Below are positions 18,149-51,195 of a stretch of 64,000 bases of DNA, piece after piece. Both the position numbers and the translations under genes were made by a program. Position 1 is the first letter of the stretch. Each line of letters starts with the position of its first letter. This DNA comes from Mycobacterium paraseoulense (GTDB lineage Bacteria > Actinomycetota > Actinomycetes > Mycobacteriales > Mycobacteriaceae), in NCBI RefSeq assembly GCF_010731655.1, contig NZ_AP022619.1, forward strand, positions 4,464,001 through 4,528,000. Direction: 5' to 3'. The notes beneath the pieces were generated by a model. The model did not search any database, was not told the origin of the DNA, and worked only from the letters and a program-made list of their open reading frames with translations.

Positions 18149-19147
18149 CTAGCCGAGGATTTTGCTGAGTTGCGGGGGCAGCTGGTCGGCCACCAACGGG
18201 TAGCTCAGCGGTGAGGAGAAGGCGATCGCGCCGGCCTGCTCCTTGGTGGTGAAGATGTGCCGGTTCTGCGCGGTCGCCTGTGCGGCCGCGACGTCGGGGT
18301 CGGCGAGCAACGCCTTCTGGTCGTCGGGGCTCTCGGTTGTCCAGATGACCACGTCGGCGGAGTCGAGCACCTCTTTGACGTGATCGCGGGGGATGACAGC
18401 GCGGTGGTCGCTGCCGAAAGGCTTGATGCTGTCGGCGATCACCAACCCCATCTGGTTGAGGAAGTCCGTGCGCCAGCCCGCGATGGTCGCCACCACGGTG
18501 CCCTGCCACAGCGTGCCCTGCATCAGCAACGCCTTCTTGCCGGTCCAGTTGGGGTGCTCCTTGCCGACGGCGGTGAATTTCTGGTCGACGGCGTCGATCA
18601 ACGACTTCATCTGGTCGGCCTGGAACACCGCCTGGCCGATGATGGTGGCCTGTTCCTTCCAGGGCTCGAAGAAGGCGTCGCCGTCCGACTGCGGCACGGT
18701 TGGGGCGATCGCGGAGAGCTTCTGATAGGTGTCGGCGTCCACCCCGGCGTTGGTGGCCACGATCAGGTCGGGTTTGAGGCCCGCGATCTGGTCCACCGGA
18801 ATCCCGTTGTCGAGGTTCAACACCACCGGCTGCGCCCCGCCGAGCTTGGGTTGGGCCCATGGCCACACCGCGAACGGCTGATCACCGAACCAGTTGGTCA
18901 CCGCGATCGGCACGACGCCGACCGCGAGCAGGTCGTCCTGCTCGGTGTAACCGGCGCTGACCACGCGCTTGGGCGGTTCCTTGATGACGGTCTTACCGAA
19001 CAGGTGGTTGATCGTCACCGATTTGCCGCCGCCGGTATCCGACGACGGTTTACCTGACGAGCACGCCGTCGGACCCGCGGCGGCCGCGGCGGCCGCCGCA
19101 GCCCCTGCGAGCTGCAAGAATCCCCGTCGATTCCAACCCTGTCGCAT
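18149..19147 (-). CDS. Siderophore/iron-type ABC transporter substrate-binding lipoprotein
   Basis: A 332-aa exported type III periplasmic binding protein. The N-terminus [24 protein letters not shown] combines a twin-arginine motif with a lipobox-like Cys (read in two parts: RRGFLQ, then PTAC). The mature part has KRVVSAGYTEQDDLLAVGVVPIAV, LKPDLIVATNAGVDADTYQKL and a long linking helix, as in FecB/FhuD proteins that bind ferric siderophores or B12. No permease or ATPase gene is near, so its partner transporter is elsewhere. Equals Rv0265c, described as a putative iron-transport lipoprotein. The oplA gene expected next to it (Rv0266c) is absent. Confidence 0.85.
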   Translation of the reverse strand: MRQGWNRRGFLQLAGAAAAAAAAAGPTACSSGKPSSDTGGGKSVTINHLFGKTVIKEPPKRVVSAGYTEQDDLLAVGVVPIAVTNWFGDQPFAVWPWAQPKLGGAQPVVLNLDNGIPVDQIAGLKPDLIVATNAGVDADTYQKLSAIAPTVPQSDGDAFFEPWKEQATIIGQAVFQADQMKSLIDAVDQKFTAVGKEHPNWTGKKALLMQGTLWQGTVVATIAGWRTDFLNQMGLVIADSIKPFGSDHRAVIPRDHVKEVLDSADVVIWTTESPDDQKALLADPDVAAAQATAQNRHIFTTKEQAGAIAFSSPLSYPLVADQLPPQLSKILG

Positions 19148-36859: not shown

Positions 36860-37414
36860 TCAGATCTTCGTTGCCTTCGCGGCGCTGACTTGATAGCTAC
36901 CCGCGTCGTCGGTGAAGGTGACCACGAACTGGTGTTTGAGGTGGTCGATGGTTGCCTGGCAGGTGAAGGTGCCGCCCTTGGTGACGGTGGGGTTTTGGCC
37001 GTCGTTGCAGGAGACGTCGCCGACGCTGCGGGCGCCGTAACCCGCGGGGTCGGACAACACGTGCGCGACGCCGGCCTGCACGGCGGCGACGTCGAGCTGC
37101 TTGGTGACGAAAAACCCCGGCGCCCAGAATCCCGGAACGGCGATGGCCGCGGCGGCCACGGTGATCCCTGCGCCCAGGTAAAGCGGCAGACGTCTGCGCA
37201 CCGCGGCCCGCGGGCCGCGTGGGGCGAACTGGGTCGGCGCCCAGACGTTCGCACCGGGACCTCGTTGCTGCCCGGGGTAGGGCAGTGCCGGGCGCAGGTT
37301 CCCCATGGGTAAGGGACGCGGCAGGGGTCGGGTGGGCGGATCGCAGCAGGGCCCGGGGGTAAGACCGGGTGGCTGGGGGTATTGCCGCGGCGCCCTGGGC
37401 TGCTGTGGCTGCAT
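36860..37414 (-). CDS. DUF4333-like membrane-anchored protein with proline-rich cytoplasmic tail
   Basis: A 184-aa protein. Residues 1-70 are Pro/Gln-rich, followed by Arg73-75, a membrane span at about 78-96, and an exported domain with two cysteines (Cys136 in VGDVSCNDG, Cys152 in GTFTCQATI). This pattern is typical of DUF4333 domains, found on many actinobacterial membrane proteins and kinase-associated sensors. ATG 37414 has GAGAGAGG upstream. It is divergent from the FHA-HTH gene, and a long palindrome (37490-37518) lies between them. Function is unknown; it may sense or bind in the periplasm. Confidence 0.75.
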   Translation of the reverse strand: MQPQQPRAPRQYPQPPGLTPGPCCDPPTRPLPRPLPMGNLRPALPYPGQQRGPGANVWAPTQFAPRGPRAAVRRRLPLYLGAGITVAAAAIAVPGFWAPGFFVTKQLDVAAVQAGVAHVLSDPAGYGARSVGDVSCNDGQNPTVTKGGTFTCQATIDHLKHQFVVTFTDDAGSYQVSAAKATKI

Positions 37415-37791
37415 CGGGGTACCTCTCTCGTGTGGCCTGGTGACGGTCGGGCCCGCCTGTGCTTGAACTCTAACCAAAGCGTACGGCAATTGCAACGCTT
37501 CAAAACGAAGCATTACAAAGGATGCTCCCGCGGTGCGCGTGCGGCCGGCGGCGCGGCAGCGGCGGCATGGTCCAGCCCGCCCGGGTCGGCCGAACCGGGC
37601 GAGTGGCCCCTGAGCTGCGCAAATAATTCCGACCTGAGATCGAGGACGAGGCCATGGGCGTGCGCGCGGCCCCCACGACACCGAGGCCGCCCCGGGACCT
37701 CTTCGGTCGACCGCCCGCACAGCCGCTGTAGCATCACCGGTAATGCGTTGGGTCATACCGCAGCAGTGGGCCCCCGACCGAGGAGCGCAAG
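37415..37791. promoter_or_regulatory. Divergent promoter region between DUF4333 and FHA-HTH genes
   Basis: A 377-bp region with an AT-rich part near 37470-37520 that contains the TGCAAYG palindrome, and a GC-rich part with a 24-bp near-palindrome at 37578-37601 (arms CGCCCGG/CCGGGCG). No convincing gene is present. Confidence 0.6.
37490..37518. promoter_or_regulatory. Long palindrome, cluster operator candidate 1
   Basis: TTGCAACGCTTC (37490-37501), 5-nt spacer, GAAGCATTACAA (37507-37518): 12-bp arms with two mismatches. The outer half-sites, TTGCAACG and the complement TTGTAATG, match those of the palindrome at 40211-40234. It lies 76 bp upstream of the DUF4333 start and about 270 bp upstream of the FHA-HTH gene. 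Confidence 0.65.
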
Positions 37792-38922
37792 GTGATATCC
37801 GGCCAATCGACGACCGCGCTCGCCGTGCGGGTCGGGCAGGCGACGCACACGCTTCACCCCGCGGCCGGTGTCGCCGTCATCGGCAGAGACGCCGGGGCCG
37901 CGGTACGGGTGGACGACGAGCGGGTCTCGCGGTCGCACGTTCGGCTCGAGCCGCACCGCGACGGCTGGCAGGCCTTCGACACCAGCACCAACGGGATGTT
38001 CGTCGACGGGATACGCCGCAACTCGGTCCTGCTCACCGGCGCCACCACGATCTGTCTCGGCGCGCCCGACGGGGCGGCCGTGACCCTGACCCCGCAGCAC
38101 CCGTCGGAGGTGACGGGCGAGGAGTCGACCCAAGTCGTGCGCCCGTTCGACGCCGAGGACGAGCAGTGGTGGGAGGGCCAAAGCGACCCCGGCGTCATCC
38201 GCGCCGGCGGCGCGGTCGCCGAGCGCCGACAGCAGCTGGGGATCTCCCAACGCAGCCTGGACCGCGACGGAATCATCAACGCCGGCGCCCTGATCAACTT
38301 CGAGAAGGGCCGCAGCTGGCCGCGTCGCAGCACGCTGGAGCGGCTGGAGAAGGTGTTGGACTGGCCCACGGGCCACATCACGCGCATCCGCCGCGGGGCG
38401 GTTCCGGGGCCGGCCGGTGGTGCGGCCAGGATCGGCCCGCCCAGGGCTGCCGGCGACGAGGCCACCGAGGTGCTGACCGACTCGGTTCAGGCGCCGCTGA
38501 TGGCCGAGACGGTGGAGCTGGCCATGCACACCCTCACCGCCGCGGTCGCCGAATTGCCCGAGCCGACCGATCCCGACTTCACCCCCAGGGCCACCAAAAT
38601 ACTTGCCGACCTGCGCAAGCTCGAAAGGCTGGCATCGAGCGCGGCGCGCAACGCCAAAGGCAGCCCGTCGGTCATCCTGGCGCTGAGCAGCGTGCGGCGC
38701 AGCTACAACGATTTGATGCGGCGGGCGGCGGGCTCGCCGGCGGCGACCCTGGGCCAGCGGCTCTACGGCGCCCGGCACCGGGCGGAACTGAGCCTCGAGG
38801 AGGCGGCCAACGGCGCCGGGCTGCCGGTATCCGTCCTCGAGGACACCGAAGCCGAGCGCGGCATCGCTCCCGAGGCGGCACGGGCCATCGAAAACCTGAT
38901 CGCGCAGCTGACAATCGGTTAA
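37792..38922 (+). CDS. FHA domain plus XRE-type helix-turn-helix protein
   Basis: A 376-aa soluble protein starting at GTG 37792, with GAGGAG upstream. Residues about 5-100 form a forkhead-associated phosphothreonine-binding domain with its conserved residues: Gly31-Arg32, Ser46-Arg-Ser-His49 and Thr66-Asn67-Gly68. The STQVVRPFD stretch (112-120) recalls the phospho-acceptor region of GarA. Residues about 137-200 resemble an XRE-type HTH (AVAERRQQLGISQRSL, then GALINFEKGRSWP). The C-terminal 50 residues resemble a second XRE-like helical module. It would couple Ser/Thr kinase signalling to DNA binding. FHA plus winged helix is known (EmbR); FHA plus XRE is less familiar. Confidence 0.78.
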   Translation: MISGQSTTALAVRVGQATHTLHPAAGVAVIGRDAGAAVRVDDERVSRSHVRLEPHRDGWQAFDTSTNGMFVDGIRRNSVLLTGATTICLGAPDGAAVTLTPQHPSEVTGEESTQVVRPFDAEDEQWWEGQSDPGVIRAGGAVAERRQQLGISQRSLDRDGIINAGALINFEKGRSWPRRSTLERLEKVLDWPTGHITRIRRGAVPGPAGGAARIGPPRAAGDEATEVLTDSVQAPLMAETVELAMHTLTAAVAELPEPTDPDFTPRATKILADLRKLERLASSAARNAKGSPSVILALSSVRRSYNDLMRRAAGSPAATLGQRLYGARHRAELSLEEAANGAGLPVSVLEDTEAERGIAPEAARAIENLIAQLTIG

Positions 38923-39361: not shown

Positions 39362-40150
39362 TCAGGCCTGCGAGATCGCGGCGGTGGTTTTGGAGACGAT
39401 GTCGCTCGCCTCGCTAGTGGTGCCGAACCCGCACCACAGGGTGTCGACGATGACGTTGTTGGCCAGCCCCATGGCGCGCTGGCATGATGCGCCGCGGCCT
39501 CCGGGCTGGGTTTGTGTGGTGGCCAACGTGGTGTCGGTGGCCTGCGGCTCGCCGAGATCCCAGGTGACGGGGGCGTGGCCGGGGGTGGTGACGGTGATCG
39601 GCCGGTGGGCGCAGCCAGCCCAGCGCGCCTTGGCCTGGCTGAAGAATTGCCGGGCCGAATCGGCGTCACGGAAGCCGATCAGCACCTGCACCAGCGCGTG
39701 CTCGGGAGCGACGGGTGCGGCGTCATCGAGTATCTGCCCTTGCACCGCCGTCCAGTTGCTGCCCTGGTAGGCGGTGGCTTCGGCGGGTGAATAGGTGCCC
39801 ACGCAGCCCGGGTTGGAGACCACATTCTCGTCGTGCCACATTCGCGAGACCGGCCTGCGCACTGCCATGGCGGTGGTGTGCCCGATCGCGTCGACCTCGT
39901 CTTCCTTGAGCAGCAGATCGGCCAGGTTCTGGGGCAGGATCGCCGCCGGCTGCCAGTGGCCCAGGTCCGGGGCCGCGGCGGGGTGTCCGGTGGCGGTGGT
40001 GGTGCAGCCGCTCAGCACCACCGCGAGGGCGACGGCGGCGAGCATTGCCCAGCGGGCGCCGGGCGCGAAGCGCGCTCTGCGCCCGGCGCTGCCCCCATGC
40101 GGGGCGCCGGTCATCGGTCCAGCTCGGTGTTGCGGTGAAACAGCGCTCAT
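39362..40150 (-). CDS. Lipoprotein with PknH-like four-cysteine sensor domain
   Basis: A 262-aa lipoprotein. A basic, disordered N-terminus precedes a hydrophobic signal with lipobox VLSGC (Cys49). The exported domain resembles the extracellular sensor domain of kinase PknH, with four cysteines (NPGCVG, WAGCAH, GASCQR, TLWCGF) expected to form two disulfides. ATG 40150 has GGAGG upstream. It is divergent from the membrane-anchored sensor protein at 40308, with a 24-bp palindrome between. In M. tuberculosis, stand-alone lipoproteins of this family exist, with unknown ligands. Confidence 0.8.
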   Translation of the reverse strand: MSAVSPQHRAGPMTGAPHGGSAGRRARFAPGARWAMLAAVALAVVLSGCTTTATGHPAAAPDLGHWQPAAILPQNLADLLLKEDEVDAIGHTTAMAVRRPVSRMWHDENVVSNPGCVGTYSPAEATAYQGSNWTAVQGQILDDAAPVAPEHALVQVLIGFRDADSARQFFSQAKARWAGCAHRPITVTTPGHAPVTWDLGEPQATDTTLATTQTQPGGRGASCQRAMGLANNVIVDTLWCGFGTTSEASDIVSKTTAAISQA

Positions 40151-40210
40151 GTCGGGTCCTCCTGCCGGCTCGTGCGGTATGGCAGGGACGCTAGCAATTA
40201 AAACGGAGCA

Positions 40211-40234
40211 GTGCAACGTTTAGAAACATTGCAC
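40211..40234. promoter_or_regulatory. Long palindrome, cluster operator candidate 2
   Basis: GTGCAACGTTT (40211-40221), AG, AAACATTGCAC (40224-40234): 11-bp arms with a single mismatch. It lies in the divergent region between the two sensor genes (61 and 74 bp from their starts) and shares its half-site with the palindrome at 37490-37518. Confidence 0.7.
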
Positions 40235-40307: not shown

Positions 40308-41312
40308 ATGCCCGACCACCCGCACCCGTCGATGACCAACACGACCTATCCCGCCCCGGCAAGCGGCCCGGCGGTACCGCGCAGCGGTTCCCGACCCGCC
40401 CCGACACCGCCCGCCGCCCCCGGGGACGAGATCACCACGGCGTTGCCCCGCCGGCCGTTCGGGATTGCGGGTCCGCCCGCGGGTCCGCCGGCGATGCTCA
40501 CCTGGGGGCCGGTGCCCGGATACCTCCCCGCGTTCGCCCCGGCGCGCCGGCGGCGTCAGACCCCCTGGACGCAGATCGCCGTGGGGGCCGCGGTCGTGGT
40601 GACGCTGGTGGTCGCCGGTTTGGCGATCAGCGTGGCCGGCAGCCCTGACGACACGGCGACCTCGACATCGATGCCCGCGCCGACGACTTCCGCGGCGCCG
40701 ATCGACCCGGGCCCAGCACCGCAGGCACCCACGGTGCCGCTGTCGGCGCTACCCGGGCTGATGCTGGATGTGGCCACCATCAACACCATCGAGGGCGCCA
40801 CTGACATCGCACCGTCACCCGACTCGGCCAACGACAACGCGGCCTACAGCGGCCTCGACACCGACCGGCCCGAATGCGGCGAGATCCAAGCTCCCGCGCT
40901 CGAATCGGAGCTCGACGGCAGCGGCTGGATCGGCGTGCGTACTCAATCGCTGCAAGACCCCGAGGGCGCCCGGCACCTCAACCACAGCGCCGCGATCTAC
41001 TTCGCCACCGCCAAGGCGGCCAACGACTTCGCGGCCAAACAGGCGCAGGCTTGGCCGAAATGCAACGGCGCCAGCCTGCACCTGACCGTCCGCCGAGAAC
41101 CCACCAGCATCTGGATGGCGGGCACGGCCACCAACCGTGACGGCATGCTCAGCATCACCAACACTCAGGAAGGCGCCCGGGGGTGGCAGTGCCAGCGGGC
41201 CCTGACCGCACGCAACAACATCGTCATCGACGTGCGCAGCTGCGGCGACAACCGCACCGATCAAGCGATCACCATCGCCACCCGGATGGCCGAACGCGTC
41301 ACCACCCGCTGA
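40308..41312 (+). CDS. Membrane-anchored PknH-like sensor domain protein without a kinase
   Basis: A 334-aa type II membrane protein. Residues 1-80 are Pro/Ala-rich and end in a basic ARRRR cluster. A membrane span covers about 88-110, then a Pro/Thr linker to about 145. The exported domain (about 150-334) has the four-cysteine PknH-sensor pattern (Cys190, Cys252, Cys295, Cys312). The layout copies the C-terminal half of a PknH-type kinase, but no kinase domain is present. GAAGGA precedes ATG 40308. It may pair with the nearby kinase or lipoproteins in ligand sensing. Confidence 0.78.
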   Translation: MPDHPHPSMTNTTYPAPASGPAVPRSGSRPAPTPPAAPGDEITTALPRRPFGIAGPPAGPPAMLTWGPVPGYLPAFAPARRRRQTPWTQIAVGAAVVVTLVVAGLAISVAGSPDDTATSTSMPAPTTSAAPIDPGPAPQAPTVPLSALPGLMLDVATINTIEGATDIAPSPDSANDNAAYSGLDTDRPECGEIQAPALESELDGSGWIGVRTQSLQDPEGARHLNHSAAIYFATAKAANDFAAKQAQAWPKCNGASLHLTVRREPTSIWMAGTATNRDGMLSITNTQEGARGWQCQRALTARNNIVIDVRSCGDNRTDQAITIATRMAERVTTR

Positions 41313-41824: not shown

Positions 41825-43102
41825 ATGCGCGGGGAGGAGAAGCGAATCCGCGACCGGGTGCGACGGCCGGCCGTGCTGAGCGCCTCCCTCGCCGTGGTGG
41901 CCGCACTGGGCGGCGGCTGTTCGACGGTGGTGACCGGCAGCGCCGTCAAGTCCGGTGGCCCGGCGCCGGCGGCGGCCAACGTGGCGCTGCTCGACCCGGG
42001 CAACTACCCACGCCGGCCGCGCCCACCGCTGGGCACCGTCGCCGACGACGCAGCCGGGCGTCGTGTCGAAGCCCAGCGGATGGCAGAGATGGTGGCCGGC
42101 CCCTGGCAGGTCGACGGGACGATGATCAGCCCGCTGAGCGCCGAAATAGCGCCCACCACAGCGGTTCCCGAGCCCGGGCGGCTCTCGGCGCTGGTGCGCG
42201 GTGATTCGATCGCCGCGATCGCCGCCGCGCATCACTTCGTGGCGGGCTTCGTCAGCGGACGCGCCACCCCGCCACCGCCACGCGGACAACCCCCCGCTGA
42301 TAAACCCAAGATCCTGGACAACGGGGTGTTCCGCTTCCCCGGCCCGCAAGACGCCGCCGACGCGGCGGCAGCCATGGCCGCGGCCGACATGGCCACCATC
42401 CGGCCGGGGAACATCCCGGCCACCCGGCTGTCAATCCCGCAGTACCCCAACGCGATCGCCAACGTGGCCCCCCTGTCCGGAGGATTCGAGGCCGAAGCGT
42501 TCACCGCTCACGGACCCTACGTGCTTTTCCAGTTCGCCGGCTCCAAAGAGAGCGCGGGCGCGGTCGCCGACATGATCGCCAAAACGCTCGACTTGCAAGG
42601 CCCGATGGCCGACCACTTCCAGGCCACACCCGTAGACCAGCTGGCCGCCTTGCCCGCCGACCCGACCGGACTGCTGGCCCGCACCGTGCCCGCCACCGAC
42701 CCCGGCGTCAACCAGGCCGCGGTCTATCCACCACACGGCTCGCTGCATTTCCGGTCCGACCCGGTGGCCACCCAAGCCGTATACACCGACGCCGGAATCA
42801 ACCGCGTCGCCGCCGACCGCACCACCGTCTACGAGGCGGTCGATAGCACCGGTGCCCAGCGGGCCGCCGACGGGCTCGCCCGCATCGACGTCCCCTTCCT
42901 GGGCTACCGCTCCGCCGCCGGAATCAATGGACTGCCCTCGGCGCACTGCTTCGACCGCGGGCCCGATACCAGCGAGCTGGGCGGCGTTCGCTATCTGTGC
43001 GTCGCGACCGCCGATCGTTACGCGTTCAAAGTTACTGCCGCTCAGGAACTCGAGGCGCACCAGATCGTCGCCGCCCAATACCTGATGTTGACCGCGCCAT
43101 GA
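41825..43102 (+). CDS. Secreted lipoprotein, paralogue of the next gene
   Basis: A 425-aa lipoprotein from ATG 41825 (GTG 41858 is an alternative). The charged RIRDRVRR is followed by a hydrophobic core and a lipobox-like GGGC at residue about 34. The mature part has ANVALLDPGNYPRRPRPPLGTV near its start and ends with SAHCFDR..., YLCVATADRYAFKV..., and AAQYLMLTAP. The paired C-terminal Cys probably form a disulfide. The next gene overlaps by 4 bp (ATGA) and is paralogous along its whole length. No enzyme motif is seen. Likely an envelope component of the sensing system. Confidence 0.72.
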   Translation: MRGEEKRIRDRVRRPAVLSASLAVVAALGGGCSTVVTGSAVKSGGPAPAAANVALLDPGNYPRRPRPPLGTVADDAAGRRVEAQRMAEMVAGPWQVDGTMISPLSAEIAPTTAVPEPGRLSALVRGDSIAAIAAAHHFVAGFVSGRATPPPPRGQPPADKPKILDNGVFRFPGPQDAADAAAAMAAADMATIRPGNIPATRLSIPQYPNAIANVAPLSGGFEAEAFTAHGPYVLFQFAGSKESAGAVADMIAKTLDLQGPMADHFQATPVDQLAALPADPTGLLARTVPATDPGVNQAAVYPPHGSLHFRSDPVATQAVYTDAGINRVAADRTTVYEAVDSTGAQRAADGLARIDVPFLGYRSAAGINGLPSAHCFDRGPDTSELGGVRYLCVATADRYAFKVTAAQELEAHQIVAAQYLMLTAP

Positions 43103-44307
43103 CGCGCCGCGTCCGCCAGTGGACCGTCGCCGCCGCGGCCGCGGCGTTGACGGTCGCCTGCAGTTCCACGGTCGCGGGGACCGCTGTCAAAGCCCCCGGG
43201 ACGGACAGCACCGATGGCGTCGACCTCGCCCTGCTCGACGCCGGGAACTTCCCGACCACCCCGCGCGACCCGCTGGGAACCGCCGGTGACGCGCTGCGCG
43301 GCGGCTGGGCCGAAGGACGTCGCCTGGCCGGCGCCGTGGTGGGCCCCTGGGAGGCCGACCCCGACCTGATCGACTACGCCCAAGTCGATTCGGGCGTGGT
43401 CAAGGACGCTGACGCGGTCAACTCGCTGCTGGGCGCCCCGATGGGCGAGGGCCTGGGCGGCCACAACCTACTGGCCGGTTTCTCCAGCGCCCGTCACACC
43501 GAGAAGGGCCCGTACAAGGGCCTGCTCAACATCGTGCTGGAGCTGGCCAGCCCGGCCGATGCGACCGCCGCGGCCGCCGCCATGGCCGCCAGGGGCACGG
43601 CCTTGAAAATGCCCTTCGAAACCAAAACCATTCCCACGCAGCCGTTTTCGATCCCGCGTCACCCCGCGACTGCGGCGCTGACCTACCAGTGGACCGCGCG
43701 TTACCCTGACCCCGGCGGTCCACGGTTCTCGGTGACCGCCCTGAGTGCCCACGGTCAATATGTGCTGGCGCAAACGGCGACATCGTCCGACAATGCCGAT
43801 ATCGCAGCCCAATTGATCGCCACCACAATGGATTTGCAGCAGCCCTCGGTCGACGCCTTCAAGCCCACGCCGCGCGATCAGCTGGCCCAGCTGCCGCTGG
43901 ACCCCGACGGGCTGATGGCGCGCACCGTGGCGCCCCGACAAGAGAACGAGTCGATCAGCGACGGCATCTATGACCCACACGGTGCGCTGCACTTGGCCAC
44001 CGATAACCCGGTTCACCTACAAGCACTGTACAAATCCGCCAATGTGCAGCGGGTCGCCTACACCCTGGAAACCAGTGTCTATCAAACGCCCGACGCCGGC
44101 GCGGCGGCGCGGATCGTCGCCGACATGTCCGGGCCGCACCAAGTGGGCGGGATCAGCGGCATGCCCAAGGCGAAGTGCTTCAACGAGACATTGGGCTATT
44201 GGTGTGTGGCTCGCGCGGATCGCTACGCCTACGAGATGCAAAACGAACAGGAGAATGCGCTGCACCAGATGATGGCCGCCCAATATCGCATGCTCACCGG
44301 GAAGTGA
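43099..44307 (+). CDS. Secreted lipoprotein, paralogue of the preceding gene
   Basis: A 402-aa lipoprotein: MTRRVRQWTV, Ala-rich core, lipobox TVAC (Cys about 21). It shares with its upstream neighbour the VDLALLDAGNFPTTPRDPLGTA opening (compare ANVALLDPGNY) and the ending with KCFNETLGYWCVARADRYAYEM and AAQYRMLTGK. ATG 43099 overlaps the upstream stop. The kinase gene starts 7 bp after its stop, so the three genes form one tight operon. Function unknown; the organisation suggests extracytoplasmic partners of the kinase. Confidence 0.75.
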   Translation: MTRRVRQWTVAAAAAALTVACSSTVAGTAVKAPGTDSTDGVDLALLDAGNFPTTPRDPLGTAGDALRGGWAEGRRLAGAVVGPWEADPDLIDYAQVDSGVVKDADAVNSLLGAPMGEGLGGHNLLAGFSSARHTEKGPYKGLLNIVLELASPADATAAAAAMAARGTALKMPFETKTIPTQPFSIPRHPATAALTYQWTARYPDPGGPRFSVTALSAHGQYVLAQTATSSDNADIAAQLIATTMDLQQPSVDAFKPTPRDQLAQLPLDPDGLMARTVAPRQENESISDGIYDPHGALHLATDNPVHLQALYKSANVQRVAYTLETSVYQTPDAGAAARIVADMSGPHQVGGISGMPKAKCFNETLGYWCVARADRYAYEMQNEQENALHQMMAAQYRMLTGK

Positions 44308-44314
44308 GCGCCTG

Positions 44315-46336
44315 ATGCCGCTTGCTGTGGGAACGATCATCGCCGGATACCGCATCGAAGGTGTGCTCGGTTCCGGCGGGATGGGCACGGTGTACCTGGC
44401 CCGCCACCCGACGCTGCCCCGCAGCGATGCGTTGAAGATCCTGTCCGCCGAGCTGTCCGTGGACCGCCAATTCAGGGTCCGTTTCACCCGCGAAGCCGAC
44501 TTGGCCGCCACCCTCAACCACCCGAATATCGTGCGGGTGTACAACCGCGGCGAAACCGACGACGGACACCTGTGGATCGCCATGGAGTACGTCGAAGGAA
44601 CCGCGGCCAACGATCTGGACCGCGCCAACCTCACCCCGGCCCGCATCGTGCGCATCATCACCGACGTCGCCGCCGCACTCGACTACGCGCACTCCCGGCG
44701 GGTGCTGCACCGCGACATCAAACCCGGCAACTTCCTGATCTCGGCTCCCGGCAGCGACCATGAACGAGTGTTGTTGGCCGACTTCGGTATTGCGCGCGCC
44801 CTCGATGACGCCACCACGTTGACCGCCACGGGCTCCATGGTCGGCACCGCCGCCTACGCCGCACCGGAGACCATCGAAGGCGGCCCGGCCGACGCCCGCA
44901 GCGATATCTACTCGTTGGGATGCGCCCTGTTCCGGCTGCTGACCAGCCGCACCCCCTACGAGGACAACTCACTGTCGGCGATGTTGGCCGGACACCTGAT
45001 GCGGCCCGTCCCGCGCCCCACCGACATCAACCCCGGCCTGCCCGGCCAGATCGACGACGTGATCGCCCGGGCACTGGCCAAAGACCCCGCCGAGCGCTTC
45101 CCGACCGCGGGCGCACTGGCGGCGGCCACCGCCGCCGCGCTCACCAATAACCCCGCGCCGCCCACCACCGGCCCCAGCGGGCTACCGGCAGGCAGCCCGA
45201 CCAATCCCACGCTGACCTATCCGCCCACCGTGCCCCCCGGGGCGGCCGCCGCACCGGGGTGGCCCGCCTACCAACCCCACGGGGCGGCCGGCGCGCCGAA
45301 TCATGCCGCGCCCCAATGGTTCGCGGGCATGCACCCGGCGGCCGGCGGGCCGGCGCCACCGCCTCGGGCCAAGCGGCGCAGACGCACTCGCCTGATCGTG
45401 GCGGCGACCGTTCTCGTCGCGGCGCTGGCCGCCGCCACGGTCGTGGGCATTCACCTGGTCGGCCGCCCCGGCGGCGGACTGGGCCCCTACCAACCACAAG
45501 CCCTCAGCACCAAGTTCGGCACCCTCAAGCTCGAGCACCGCCCGATGGCCATCGCCGCGCTCGGGCCCGGCGATCCCGATGCCGTCCTGTCGCTGGGGGC
45601 CCAGCCGGTCCTCATGAACGCGACCAACGCGACGGTGCCGAACTGGCTGCAGCCGCTCATCCACTCATCCCCGCCGGTGTTCGCCGCGGCCGACACCGCC
45701 GCGATCACCGCCGCCAAACCCGACCTCATCATCGACACCGGCGACATCGACCAACCCACCTTCAACGCATTGACGGCGATCGCGCCCACCCTCGCCCGAC
45801 CCGCCGACGACACTCAAGGGTGGACCTGGCAGGCGCAACTGAACTGGATCGCCACCGCGCTCGGCCGCACCGACGCGGCCAAGACCCTGATCGACAAAGC
45901 GCAGTCGGAGCAGAACACCATCCGCTCGGAGCACGGCAGCTTTTCCGGCAAATCCGTCCTCGTCGTCAGCTACACCGGCACGACCACGACCGCCGCCGTG
46001 GACCCGTCGCCGCCGAGCGGCTACCTGGAGAGCGTGGGCTTCACCTACAACCCCCACTACCAGCGCAGCCCCGGCGGACCCGCGGAAGTCCCGTTCAACA
46101 TCAACGACGCCGACTACGTCTCTCAGCGCAGCGATGTGATGCTGCTGCTGCGCACCGACCCCGCCGCCGGCGGCGGGGGATACGCCGGCCTGCCCGCCAG
46201 ATACACCAGTTTCGGCGGCACGCTGGTCATCGTCGACGACCCCGCCGCCATCGCCGCCCTCGACGCCGGCGGTCCCGCGGCCACCACGTACCTCAACACC
46301 GCGCTGGTCCCCAAGCTCGGCAACCAAATCCGCTGA
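44315..46336 (+). CDS. Ser/Thr protein kinase fused to a siderophore/B12-type periplasmic binding domain
   Basis: A 673-aa transmembrane kinase. The kinase domain (about 10-272) is complete: glycine loop GSGGMG (19-24), Lys41, Glu60, HRDIKPGN (132-139), DFG (156-158), an activation loop with Thr/Ser 167-174, and APE (183-185). A Pro-rich juxtamembrane linker (280-350) and RAKRRRR precede a single membrane span (about 360-382). The exported part (395-673) has the plan of FecB/FhuD type III binding proteins: RPMAIAALGPGDPDAVLSLG, AAKPDLIIDTGDIDQPTFNAL, a long linking helix, and a second lobe with NDADYVSQRSDVMLLL. It probably autophosphorylates on ligand binding. ATG 44315 lies 7 bp after the lipoprotein stop. 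Confidence 0.88.
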   Translation: MPLAVGTIIAGYRIEGVLGSGGMGTVYLARHPTLPRSDALKILSAELSVDRQFRVRFTREADLAATLNHPNIVRVYNRGETDDGHLWIAMEYVEGTAANDLDRANLTPARIVRIITDVAAALDYAHSRRVLHRDIKPGNFLISAPGSDHERVLLADFGIARALDDATTLTATGSMVGTAAYAAPETIEGGPADARSDIYSLGCALFRLLTSRTPYEDNSLSAMLAGHLMRPVPRPTDINPGLPGQIDDVIARALAKDPAERFPTAGALAAATAAALTNNPAPPTTGPSGLPAGSPTNPTLTYPPTVPPGAAAAPGWPAYQPHGAAGAPNHAAPQWFAGMHPAAGGPAPPPRAKRRRRTRLIVAATVLVAALAAATVVGIHLVGRPGGGLGPYQPQALSTKFGTLKLEHRPMAIAALGPGDPDAVLSLGAQPVLMNATNATVPNWLQPLIHSSPPVFAAADTAAITAAKPDLIIDTGDIDQPTFNALTAIAPTLARPADDTQGWTWQAQLNWIATALGRTDAAKTLIDKAQSEQNTIRSEHGSFSGKSVLVVSYTGTTTTAAVDPSPPSGYLESVGFTYNPHYQRSPGGPAEVPFNINDADYVSQRSDVMLLLRTDPAAGGGGYAGLPARYTSFGGTLVIVDDPAAIAALDAGGPAATTYLNTALVPKLGNQIR

Positions 46337-49325: not shown

Positions 49326-49355
49326 ATGGAGAGGCGTGGCCGTGGAACTCGGTGA
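49326..49355 (+). other. Nine-codon upstream ORF overlapping the eccA3 start
   Basis: ATG 49326 has the best ribosome site of the region (GGGGAGG, 8-nt spacing) but encodes only MERRGRGTR before TGA. It overlaps the eccA3 start in another frame. It may be a leader peptide or chance. Confidence 0.35.
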
Positions 49356-51195
49356 CACCGGCGTGCTCGCCGCTCAGCCCGTCAATGCCCGGGTGGAAGC
49401 GCGGGTCGACGGTGACGTCGTCAGCCGGTTCGCGACGTGCTGCCGCGCGCTCGGTCTCTCGGTCTACCAGCGTCAGCGCCCGGCCGACCTGGCCGCCGCC
49501 CGCTCCGGATTCACCGCGCTGACCCGCATCGCCCACGACCAGTGCGACGCCTGGACCGGCCTGGCTGCCGCCGGCGATACGTCCCTGCGGGTGCTGGAGG
49601 CGGTCTCGCACACCGTGACGACGGCCGGCACGCTGCAGCGCAAGGTGGACCTGGCGCCCGGCGCGTTGGGCTTCCGCTATGACACCGGCCTATATCTGCA
49701 GTTCCGCGCCGTCACCCCCGACGACTTCCACCTCGCCTACGCGGCGGCCCTGGGCACGGCCGGCCGGTTCGCCGACGCCGACCGGATCGTCACCGGCCTG
49801 ACCACGCGGCGCCCGGACTGGCGCGAAGCCCGTTGGGTCGCCGTCGTCATCAACTACCGCGCGGAGCGGTGGTCGGACGTCGTCAAGTTACTGACGCCGG
49901 TCGTCAACCACGCCGACCTCGACGAGGCCTTCTCGCACGCGGCCAGGATCGCGCTGGGCACCGCCCTGGCGCAGCTGGGCATGTTCGCCCCGGCGCTGTC
50001 CTACCTCGAGGAACCCGAGGGTCCCGTCGCGGTGGCGGCGGTCGACGGGGCGCTGGCCAAGGCGCTCGTGCTGCGCGCGCACGTCGACGAGGATTCGGCG
50101 AGCGAAGTGTTGCAGGACCTGTACGCGGCCCATCCGGAAAACGAACAGATCGAGCAGGCCCTGTCCGACACCAGCTTCGGGATCGTCACCACCACCGCGG
50201 CCCGGATCGAGGCGCGCACCGACCCCTGGGACCCGGACACCGAGCCCAGCGCCGAGGACTTCGTGGACCCCGCGGCCCACGAACGCAAGTCCGTGCTGCT
50301 GCACGAGGCCGAACTCCAGCTCGCCGAATTCATCGGGCTGGACGAGGTCAAGAACCAGGTGTCGCGGCTGAAGAGCTCGGTGGCCATGGAACTCGTGCGC
50401 AAGCAGCGCGGGCTGGCCGTCGCGCAGCGCGCCCACCACCTGGTCTTCGCCGGGCCGCCCGGCACCGGTAAGACCACCATCGCCCGGGTGGTCGCCAAGA
50501 TCTATTGCGGCCTTGGGCTGTTGAAGCGGGAGAACATCCGGGAGGTGCACCGCGCCGACCTGATCGGCCAGCACATCGGCGAGACCGAGGCCAAGACCAA
50601 CGCGATCATCGACAGCGCCCTGGACGGGGTGCTGTTCCTCGACGAGGCCTACGCCTTGGTCGCCACGGGCGCCAAGAACGACTTCGGACTGGTCGCCATC
50701 GACACCCTGCTGGCGCGGATGGAGAACGACCGCGACCGGCTGGTGGTCATCATCGCCGGGTACCGCGCCGACCTCGACAAGTTCCTGGACACCAACGAGG
50801 GCCTGCGGTCCCGGTTCACCCGCAACATCGACTTCCCTTCCTACGCACCGTCGGAGCTCGTCGAGATCGCGACCAAGATGGCCGAGCAGCGCGACAGCGT
50901 CTTCGAACGCGCCGCGCTCGACCACATGGAGGCGCTGTTCACCAAGCTCGCCACGGAGTCGACGCCGGACGCCAACGGAATTTCGCGGCGCAACCTCGAC
51001 ATCGCCGGCAACGGTCGCTTCGTTCGCAACATCGTCGAACGCTCGGAGGAAGAACGCGAATTCCGGCTCGACCACTCGGACCACGCGGGGACCGGGGAAT
51101 TCAGTGACGAGGAGCTGATGACCATCACCGACCAGGACGTCGAGAACTCGGTGGAGCCGTTGTTGCGCGGCCTCGGCCTGTCGGTGCCGGCATGA
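49336..51195 (+). CDS. eccA3: ESX-3 AAA+ ATPase EccA3
   Basis: A 619-aa cytosolic ATPase of the type VII system, thought to help release substrates or EspG chaperones. The N-terminal about 290 residues are TPR-like helices. The AAA+ domain has Walker A GPPGTGKTT (about 372-380), Walker B VLFLDEAYAL (about 432-441) and the sensor region LVVIIAGYRADLDKF. GTG 49336 is the first in-frame start; GTG 49342 has a better-spaced GGAGAGG and may be the true one. M. tuberculosis EccA3 is slightly longer at the N-terminus. It overlaps eccB3 by 4 bp. Confidence 0.95.
   Translation: MAVELGDTGVLAAQPVNARVEARVDGDVVSRFATCCRALGLSVYQRQRPADLAAARSGFTALTRIAHDQCDAWTGLAAAGDTSLRVLEAVSHTVTTAGTLQRKVDLAPGALGFRYDTGLYLQFRAVTPDDFHLAYAAALGTAGRFADADRIVTGLTTRRPDWREARWVAVVINYRAERWSDVVKLLTPVVNHADLDEAFSHAARIALGTALAQLGMFAPALSYLEEPEGPVAVAAVDGALAKALVLRAHVDEDSASEVLQDLYAAHPENEQIEQALSDTSFGIVTTTAARIEARTDPWDPDTEPSAEDFVDPAAHERKSVLLHEAELQLAEFIGLDEVKNQVSRLKSSVAMELVRKQRGLAVAQRAHHLVFAGPPGTGKTTIARVVAKIYCGLGLLKRENIREVHRADLIGQHIGETEAKTNAIIDSALDGVLFLDEAYALVATGAKNDFGLVAIDTLLARMENDRDRLVVIIAGYRADLDKFLDTNEGLRSRFTRNIDFPSYAPSELVEIATKMAEQRDSVFERAALDHMEALFTKLATESTPDANGISRRNLDIAGNGRFVRNIVERSEEEREFRLDHSDHAGTGEFSDEELMTITDQDVENSVEPLLRGLGLSVPA

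Follow-up and report, generated by a model that had tools for sequence, protein, structure and literature searches.

PknQ, the product of mup011 on plasmid pMUM001 of Mycobacterium ulcerans, is a 660-residue protein with a FepB-like extracellular module and has been characterised as an active kinase (Arora 2014, PMC4238996). Lys41 and Asp134 are its active-site residues, its kinase domain autophosphorylates with Thr166 being critical, and it is grouped in the PknF/PknI clade. It phosphorylates MupFHA and MupDivIVA, and MupFHA in turn inhibits PknQ (PMC4238996). Here we describe a 64,000-nucleotide stretch of Mycobacterium paraseoulense DNA (the window; coordinates count from its first letter), in which the open reading frame 44315..46336 almost certainly encodes a kinase of the same type. 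The first-pass annotation of the window knew of no functional description of a fusion of this kind, a claim that PknQ contradicts; because PknQ is already characterised, the architecture itself is not new. What is new here is a candidate partner, the DUF7373 lipoproteins, and a half-domain form of the kinase. We lean towards a reading in which the FecB-derived extracellular domain and DUF7373 lipoproteins act jointly, with a regulator carrying FHA and helix-turn-helix domains (FHA-HTH) as the target of the signal. The words lipoprotein, helix-turn-helix and HTH were not found by text search in the PknQ report (PMC4238996), and a search of one literature collection for the word DUF7373 found no paper.

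A PknQ-type kinase and its locus

The window holds a PknQ-type locus composed of an FHA-HTH protein related to MupFHA, PknH_C-domain proteins, two DUF7373 lipoproteins and the kinase:

37792..38922, + strand: FHA and helix-turn-helix protein, MupFHA relative (Pfam FHA 5e-9, HTH_3 4e-7; 47% identical to the pRAW FHA protein)
39362..40216, - strand: second PknH_C-domain protein, divergent (Pfam PF14032, 2e-40)
40308..41312, + strand: PknH_C-domain protein, upstream of the DUF7373 pair (Pfam PF14032, 1e-38)
41825..43102, + strand: DUF7373 lipoprotein a, start codon inferred (Pfam PF24088, 1e-48)
43099..44307, + strand: DUF7373 lipoprotein b, with a lipobox-like LTVAC (Pfam PF24088, 2e-45; PF24092, 2e-17)
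44315..46336, + strand: PknQ-type transmembrane Ser/Thr kinase, 673 residues (open frame, Pfam, invariant columns, 58% identical to the pRAW kinase)
44348..45106, + strand: its cytoplasmic catalytic domain, residues 12-264, with K41, HRD 132-134, DFG 156-158 and T170 (Pfam Pkinase, invariant columns)
45383..45460, + strand: its single membrane-spanning helix, residues 357-382 (structure model; hydropathy maximum at residues 361-379)

The kinase frame is open from the ATG at 44315 to a stop at 46336. In Pfam, Pkinase matches residues 12-264 (E 8e-47), and Peripla_BP_2 matches residues 460-551 over part of its profile (E 4e-9; positions 50-141 of 235). With residues 380-673 as a protein query and the best 8000 candidates scored, 133 relatives were obtained and 120 of them listed; from these 120 and the window protein 76 fusion kinases were chosen by hand and aligned. 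G19, G21, G22, M23, G24, K41, H132-R133-D134, N139 and D156-F157-G158 are invariant in all 76, as is T170 in the activation loop, which by the pattern of that loop would be the equivalent of PknQ T166. In a structure model of the full protein (mean predicted local distance difference test score, pLDDT, 82.6; predicted template modelling score, pTM, 0.49) the catalytic domain is confident except for the activation loop, residues 282-357 are disordered, and the membrane helix falls in pLDDT blocks of 61-65. The complete Hanks-type kinase with one membrane span that the first-pass annotation had described is thus borne out.

The window kinase shares with PknQ the domain layout, K41 and D134, the activation-loop pattern and a nearby FHA gene. 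All of the PknQ-type traits that we tested were found: the catalytic motifs with the activation-loop threonine, a single span followed by a homologous FepB/FecB-like ectodomain, and a nearby MupFHA-like gene, the likeness to MupFHA being judged through the pRAW FHA protein. The 58% identity to the pRAW kinase extends over the full length, and in pRAW the gene order is FHA-HTH, DUF7373, DUF7373, kinase. The window ectodomain is 54% identical over its whole length to that encoded in NC_005916 (M. ulcerans Agy99), which we take to be the pMUM001 record.

The ectodomain resembles type III binding proteins

The extracellular part of the kinase and a free binding protein of the window used for comparison are as follows:

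45497..45868, + strand: ectodomain N-lobe, residues 395-518, with GPGD, P.W and WTWQ.Q motifs, the ABC-docking acid replaced by Ala462 (alignments)
45869..45931, + strand: long inter-lobe linker helix, residues 519-539 (structure model)
45932..46333, + strand: ectodomain C-lobe, residues 540-673, the sole lobe kept in Nocardia relatives (alignments, profiles)
46151..46195, + strand: loop R613-T-D...GGGG..G-L-P627, typical of the kinases (column counts in the alignment)
18149..19147, - strand: free FecB2-type lipoprotein (Peripla_BP_2, 1e-46; 28% identical to the ectodomain)

A profile built from 27 ectodomain rows matched 49 distinct PDB chains in all, YfiY among them, with the strongest matches including 4mdy (E 9.5e-27), SirA 3mwf (4.9e-26), 4h59 (2.1e-24, covering positions 9-280 of 284) and M. 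tuberculosis FecB2 4pm4 (5.6e-23). Searching PDB with the single window protein likewise matched 4mdy, 3tef, and FecB2 and FecB entries. Against a profile of 12 free binding proteins the ectodomain profile scored 100% (E 1e-42, 274 columns), and the likeness to type III binding proteins exceeds chance by far. In the structure model two alpha/beta lobes (pLDDT blocks 82-97) are joined by the long helix 519-539. Taken together, the profile matches and the secondary structure of the model confirm the predicted two-lobe type III fold for residues 395-673, with FecB2, SirA and PiaA-type proteins as nearest solved relatives. The siderophore/B12-type plan with a long linker helix, first proposed from the letters of the window alone, therefore agrees with both the PDB search and the model, and the resemblance noted then to the free lipoprotein at 18149-19147 is also real (28% identity over 163 residues, E 2e-15).

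Several positions distinguish the kinases from the free proteins. The N-lobe docking position for ABC permeases, presumably that of BtuF Glu72, is acidic in two of the 76 kinases versus 10 of the 12 free binding proteins. At the FecB2 Tyr39 position, which was located by eye, 10 of these 12 have an aromatic residue and 72 of the 76 kinases have Pro. According to PMC10553834, a FecB2 Tyr39 mutant still binds haem and binding is not weakened. R613, D615, G621, G625 and P627 are present in all 76 kinases and in the three kinases of another genus, g262, while in this gapped region of the alignment R613, D615 and G621 occur in none of the 12 free proteins, G625 in two and P627 in nine. A strict R-[TS]-D loop motif is found in 71 of the 76 kinases, and a looser form in 37 of 40 half-domain kinases (see below).

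DUF7373 genes accompany the kinase

The stop codon of lipoprotein b lies 7 bases upstream of the kinase start, genes a and b overlap by ATGA, and the lipobox-like N-termini of both proteins are seen directly in the sequence. These are the only two DUF7373 genes in the genome that contains the window. We compared 56 named loci, 54 mycobacterial and two from Amorphoplanes, with flanks of up to 10 kb, some being shorter; the Amorphoplanes loci match only through a free FecB2-type protein. The window and 51 of the 54 mycobacterial loci have an intact fusion (L047, L051 and L084, which are cut or split, were excluded), giving 52. A DUF7373 gene adjoins the kinase in 49 of these 52: in 47 it is on the same strand and no more than 223 bases upstream of the catalytic-domain match, and in two it lies no more than 47 bases downstream of the kinase. 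In a set of 118 genus genomes, taken to be G000-G117, DUF7373 is present in 23 of 23 genomes with the kinase versus 30 of 95 others (Fisher 4e-10, with no correction for relatedness).

Twelve DUF7373 regions from genomes lacking a PknQ-type kinase were examined for adjoining kinases. In two genomes a kinase, a membrane span and DUF7373 are combined in one protein (L185:9305-11596 and L191:9039-11273), and four loci (L186-L189) have a kinase gene some 500 bases upstream of DUF7373; the two of these kinases scanned with Pfam (L186 and L189) carry PknH_C. The fused proteins offer independent evidence, at the level of gene structure, that DUF7373 can act with kinases, and in them DUF7373 would hold the place of a receptor-kinase sensor domain. 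A mirror-tree comparison of DUF7373 with the ectodomain gave a partial r of 0.38 for each lobe, a value that none of 2000 permutations reached, and 0.49 (N-lobe) and 0.62 (C-lobe) in a 28-row subset; we treat this signal as weak, because using catalytic-domain distance as the control takes out just part of the shared history.

We also considered whether DUF7373 is itself a hidden binding protein and rejected this, as its profile does not match the ectodomain, and with the free proteins reaches 14% at the signal-peptide end only. A single-sequence PDB search with DUF7373 gave a best E of 0.14.

Kinases with half an ectodomain

In a phylum-wide search, a further genus of the same family gave matches confined to ectodomain positions 140-284 or 146-284; we judge this genus to be Nocardia from relatives at 91-93% named N. 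cyriacigeorgica. Three of these half-domain kinases, with catalytic domains at 53-59% identity, carry the C-lobe alone outside the membrane. A half-domain profile of 40 rows matched the free binding proteins in the C-lobe only (96%). A C-lobe profile matches 128 of 401 family genomes, a count that includes free binding proteins. In 19 hand-picked Nocardia/g249 loci, DUF7373 is adjacent, within 197 bases, to all 22 half-domain kinases.

A third genus, g262, has the full two-lobe form. In a catalytic-domain tree made by a quick method, with a root support of 26, the half-domain kinases are one clade (Shimodaira-Hasegawa-like approximate likelihood ratio test, SH-aLRT, 100) with g262 outside, a topology that fits a single loss of the N-lobe without proving it.

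At the Nocardia-type loci L107, L108 and L150-L164, half-fold kinases are found beside one or more DUF7373 genes and mostly near an EccC gene. In L153 (1-1561) and similar Nocardia loci the half-domain kinase has as a neighbour a protein that combines two FHA domains with an ABC ATPase, the domains being Pfam-confirmed in L153 only; such a protein is possibly the effector in Nocardia loci in place of FHA-HTH.

What the ectodomain may sense

The neighbouring genes point to a cell-surface lipoprotein as the partner of the kinase and not to iron uptake itself. The first-pass annotation had instead seen a nutrient receptor, in which a ferric siderophore, haem or cobalamin bound in the cleft switches the kinase; we think this unlikely. 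It is consistent with the full type III fold, the closest relatives of known structure being for the most part binders of iron-siderophores or haem, with the aromatic W503/W505 segment beside the FecB2 F131/F132 positions, and with the conservation of both lobes in mycobacteria: mean column entropy across the 76 kinases is 1.31 bits in the N-lobe versus 1.63 bits in the C-lobe, which speaks for a real N-lobe role there. However, the Nocardia relatives lack the N-lobe and hence the cleft, not one of the 49 PDB matches bears a name that indicates cobalamin binding, and the N-lobe Arg reported to be common to HtsA, SirA and YfiY has no counterpart in the window kinase by eye, as in FecB and FecB2. 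Haemin inhibits both the isolated PknQ kinase domain and the full protein, Fe3+ having been tested on the kinase domain (PMC4238996), and because haemin acts on the isolated domain its effect cannot be taken as evidence that the ectodomain is the sensor. A search of the whole window for IdeR-like sites with up to three mismatches found none, but none was found for the ESX-3 operon either, making this a weak test that is uninformative on iron regulation. Assigning a ligand by association with the nearest free binding proteins (about 30-34% identical to the ectodomain) was also tried, with the binding-protein genes alone inspected at seven loci, and we make no ligand claim from it.

Adjacency to the ESX-3 locus favours the nutrient receptor in the window itself, where the following gene begins 3 kb downstream of the kinase:

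49336..51195, + strand: EccA3 of the neighbouring ESX-3 locus (TIGR03922)

The first-pass annotation placed the kinase next to ESX-3, which is correct for the window. The arrangement is not conserved, however, as EccA3 is near the kinase in just seven of the 52 mycobacterial loci, the window included, in flanks of 10 kb or less, and we rejected an ESX-3 partnership as a general rule.

A second alternative, which we hold to be improbable, is that the ectodomain is a structural or dimerisation module that binds no small molecule, the signal coming from partner lipoproteins or from the state of the membrane or cell wall. The half-domain kinases of Nocardia and the loss of the docking acid and N-lobe aromatic would fit such a module, as would the distribution of low-entropy residues, which show no enrichment (p = 0.23) in the strand-end loops predicted to line the cleft. 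The N-lobe is nevertheless well conserved in mycobacteria, which would be needless in a bare spacer.

The reading we lean towards, a FecB-derived domain working with DUF7373 and signalling to FHA-HTH, has to contend with that lack of enrichment as well, and with other observations. FecB of the same genome likewise lacks the docking acid, and the loss is therefore not unique to the kinases. DUF7373 is absent from three of the 52 mycobacterial loci (L049, L050 and L069) and from the neighbourhood of all three g262 kinases, though the g262 genomes carry DUF7373 genes elsewhere. Six of the 12 DUF7373 regions examined have no adjacent kinase, so that DUF7373 can stand alone too; the mirror-tree signal is modest; and an FHA-HTH relative is absent from 18 of the 52 loci, ten of which are incomplete.

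Distribution on chromosomes and plasmids

The phylogenetic profile suggested at first pass shows the fusion to be conserved. Kinase and binding-protein domains occur together in 115 of the 120 listed relatives, among which all organisms named are Mycobacterium or Mycolicibacterium. By hand count, 38 of 198 genus genomes have a match at E < 1e-50, two of them twice, and 38 of these 40 places sit in frames of 600 residues or more. The ectodomain is also found on 23 plasmid records at E 1e-20 or better, including pRAW (M. marinum) and NC_005916, and the sites vary from lineage to lineage. These last observations could describe a mobile cargo block of mycobacterial plasmids in which kinase and DUF7373 genes are carried side by side but do not cooperate. 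This is highly improbable given that DUF7373 and a kinase are fused into a single protein, that Nocardia has the same pairing although its kinase form differs, and that gene junctions are tight in the window and close relatives, all of which favour a working unit.

In L051 (M. simiae), G015 and G056 the kinase and ectodomain are interrupted or in different frames, which may reflect decay or sequencing error. Two kinase-less genomes of the genus, G088 and G169, encode free binding proteins with about 30% identity to the ectodomain along its full length (L090:9639-10718 and L091:9475-10692), which are possible nearest transport relatives.

FHA-HTH regulators and type VII secretion loci

A relative of the pRAW FHA protein (E < 1e-30) is present in 34 of the 52 loci, and in 22 of the 34 a single alignment spans both FHA and HTH. 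The genome containing the window has two FHA-HTH paralogues, one with the kinase near ESX-3 and one near another ESX locus; the latter gene (L197:9956-11146) has relatives of EccA and EccB some 6 kb away. Five loci (L061, L072, L076, L082 and L086) are near a split EccC, the first part of which, in the three tested, shares 79.7-81.5% identity with the split EccC encoded in the window genome, and these EccC proteins appear ESX-1-like by their split. EccC is also present in 16 of the 19 Nocardia/g249 loci. Nine of these proteins were tested and are 46-49% identical to another EccC of the window genome versus 35-36% to that of ESX-3, and in two loci an Rv3446c-type protein lies beside EccC, suggesting that they belong to ESX-4. 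The recurrence of type VII secretion loci near the kinases is suggestive, with few independent sites.

A DUF4333 protein is encoded at 36860-37756 (- strand), upstream of the FHA-HTH gene, and similar stretches are present at several related loci.

A proposed mechanism and comparison with known systems

The scheme we propose starts from what was seen directly: domain order, conservation, gene order, gene fusion, and the gain and loss of motifs. A binding protein of the FecB/SirA kind would have been fused to a kinase and then taken out of transport, its ABC-docking acid being lost and its C-lobe acquiring the R-[TS]-D glycine-rich loop. Outside the cell, the DUF7373 lipoproteins of the same operon and the FecB-derived ectodomain may form a receptor, and a ligand, or a ligand-loaded lipoprotein, would change the pairing of ectodomains. 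The kinases would then autophosphorylate in trans on the activation loop at T170. Their next target would be the product of the nearby FHA-HTH gene, probably a DNA-binding regulator, which might in turn alter transcription. PknQ is a direct precedent for the kinase and FHA steps; the contact with DUF7373, the ligand step and the regulation of transcription we infer.

More tentatively, and with some doubt, the ectodomain may be a transport binding protein turned co-receptor, with the DUF7373 lipoproteins as the real sensors, for which the R-[TS]-D loop and the cleft face would be the docking site. The Nocardia C-lobe would then be completed by the lipoproteins, their paralogues could serve as interchangeable inputs to one kinase, and the FHA output would be linked to genes for type VII secretion or the envelope.

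Few mycobacterial receptor kinases have a known stimulus, and a FecB-type kinase with a DUF7373 lipoprotein provides a testable pair. The natural half-domain kinase separates cleft binding from partner binding, and the fusion protein links DUF7373 to kinases. PknQ, known from one virulence plasmid, becomes a member of a family found in 38 of the 198 sampled genomes, and since the family is spread over chromosomes and plasmids we argue that its basic role is not tied to the virulence plasmid. PknQ itself is plasmid-borne, whereas the window copy is chromosomal, on a single 6.09-Mb contig, and adjoins ESX-3.

With FecB2, FecB and SirA the window kinase has in common the two-lobe fold, the long linker helix and a profile match that spans the domain largely or entirely; the kinases differ in mostly lacking the docking acid, in having Pro for the N-lobe aromatic and in the added R-[TS]-D glycine-rich loop. 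PknH senses through its extracellular PknH_C domain. The PknH-EmbR pair is like the window locus in having a transmembrane kinase, an extracellular sensor and a nearby FHA-containing regulator, and we count it as precedent, although the sensor of the window kinase is FecB-type and PknH_C proteins are encoded beside it. PknH and the FHA regulator EmbR are both named in PMC4238996. The GlnH-GlnX-PknG system (PMC6069109, PMC9769921) likewise has an extracellular binding protein controlling a Ser/Thr kinase, but there binding protein, membrane protein and kinase are separate, whereas the window kinase has all three in one chain.

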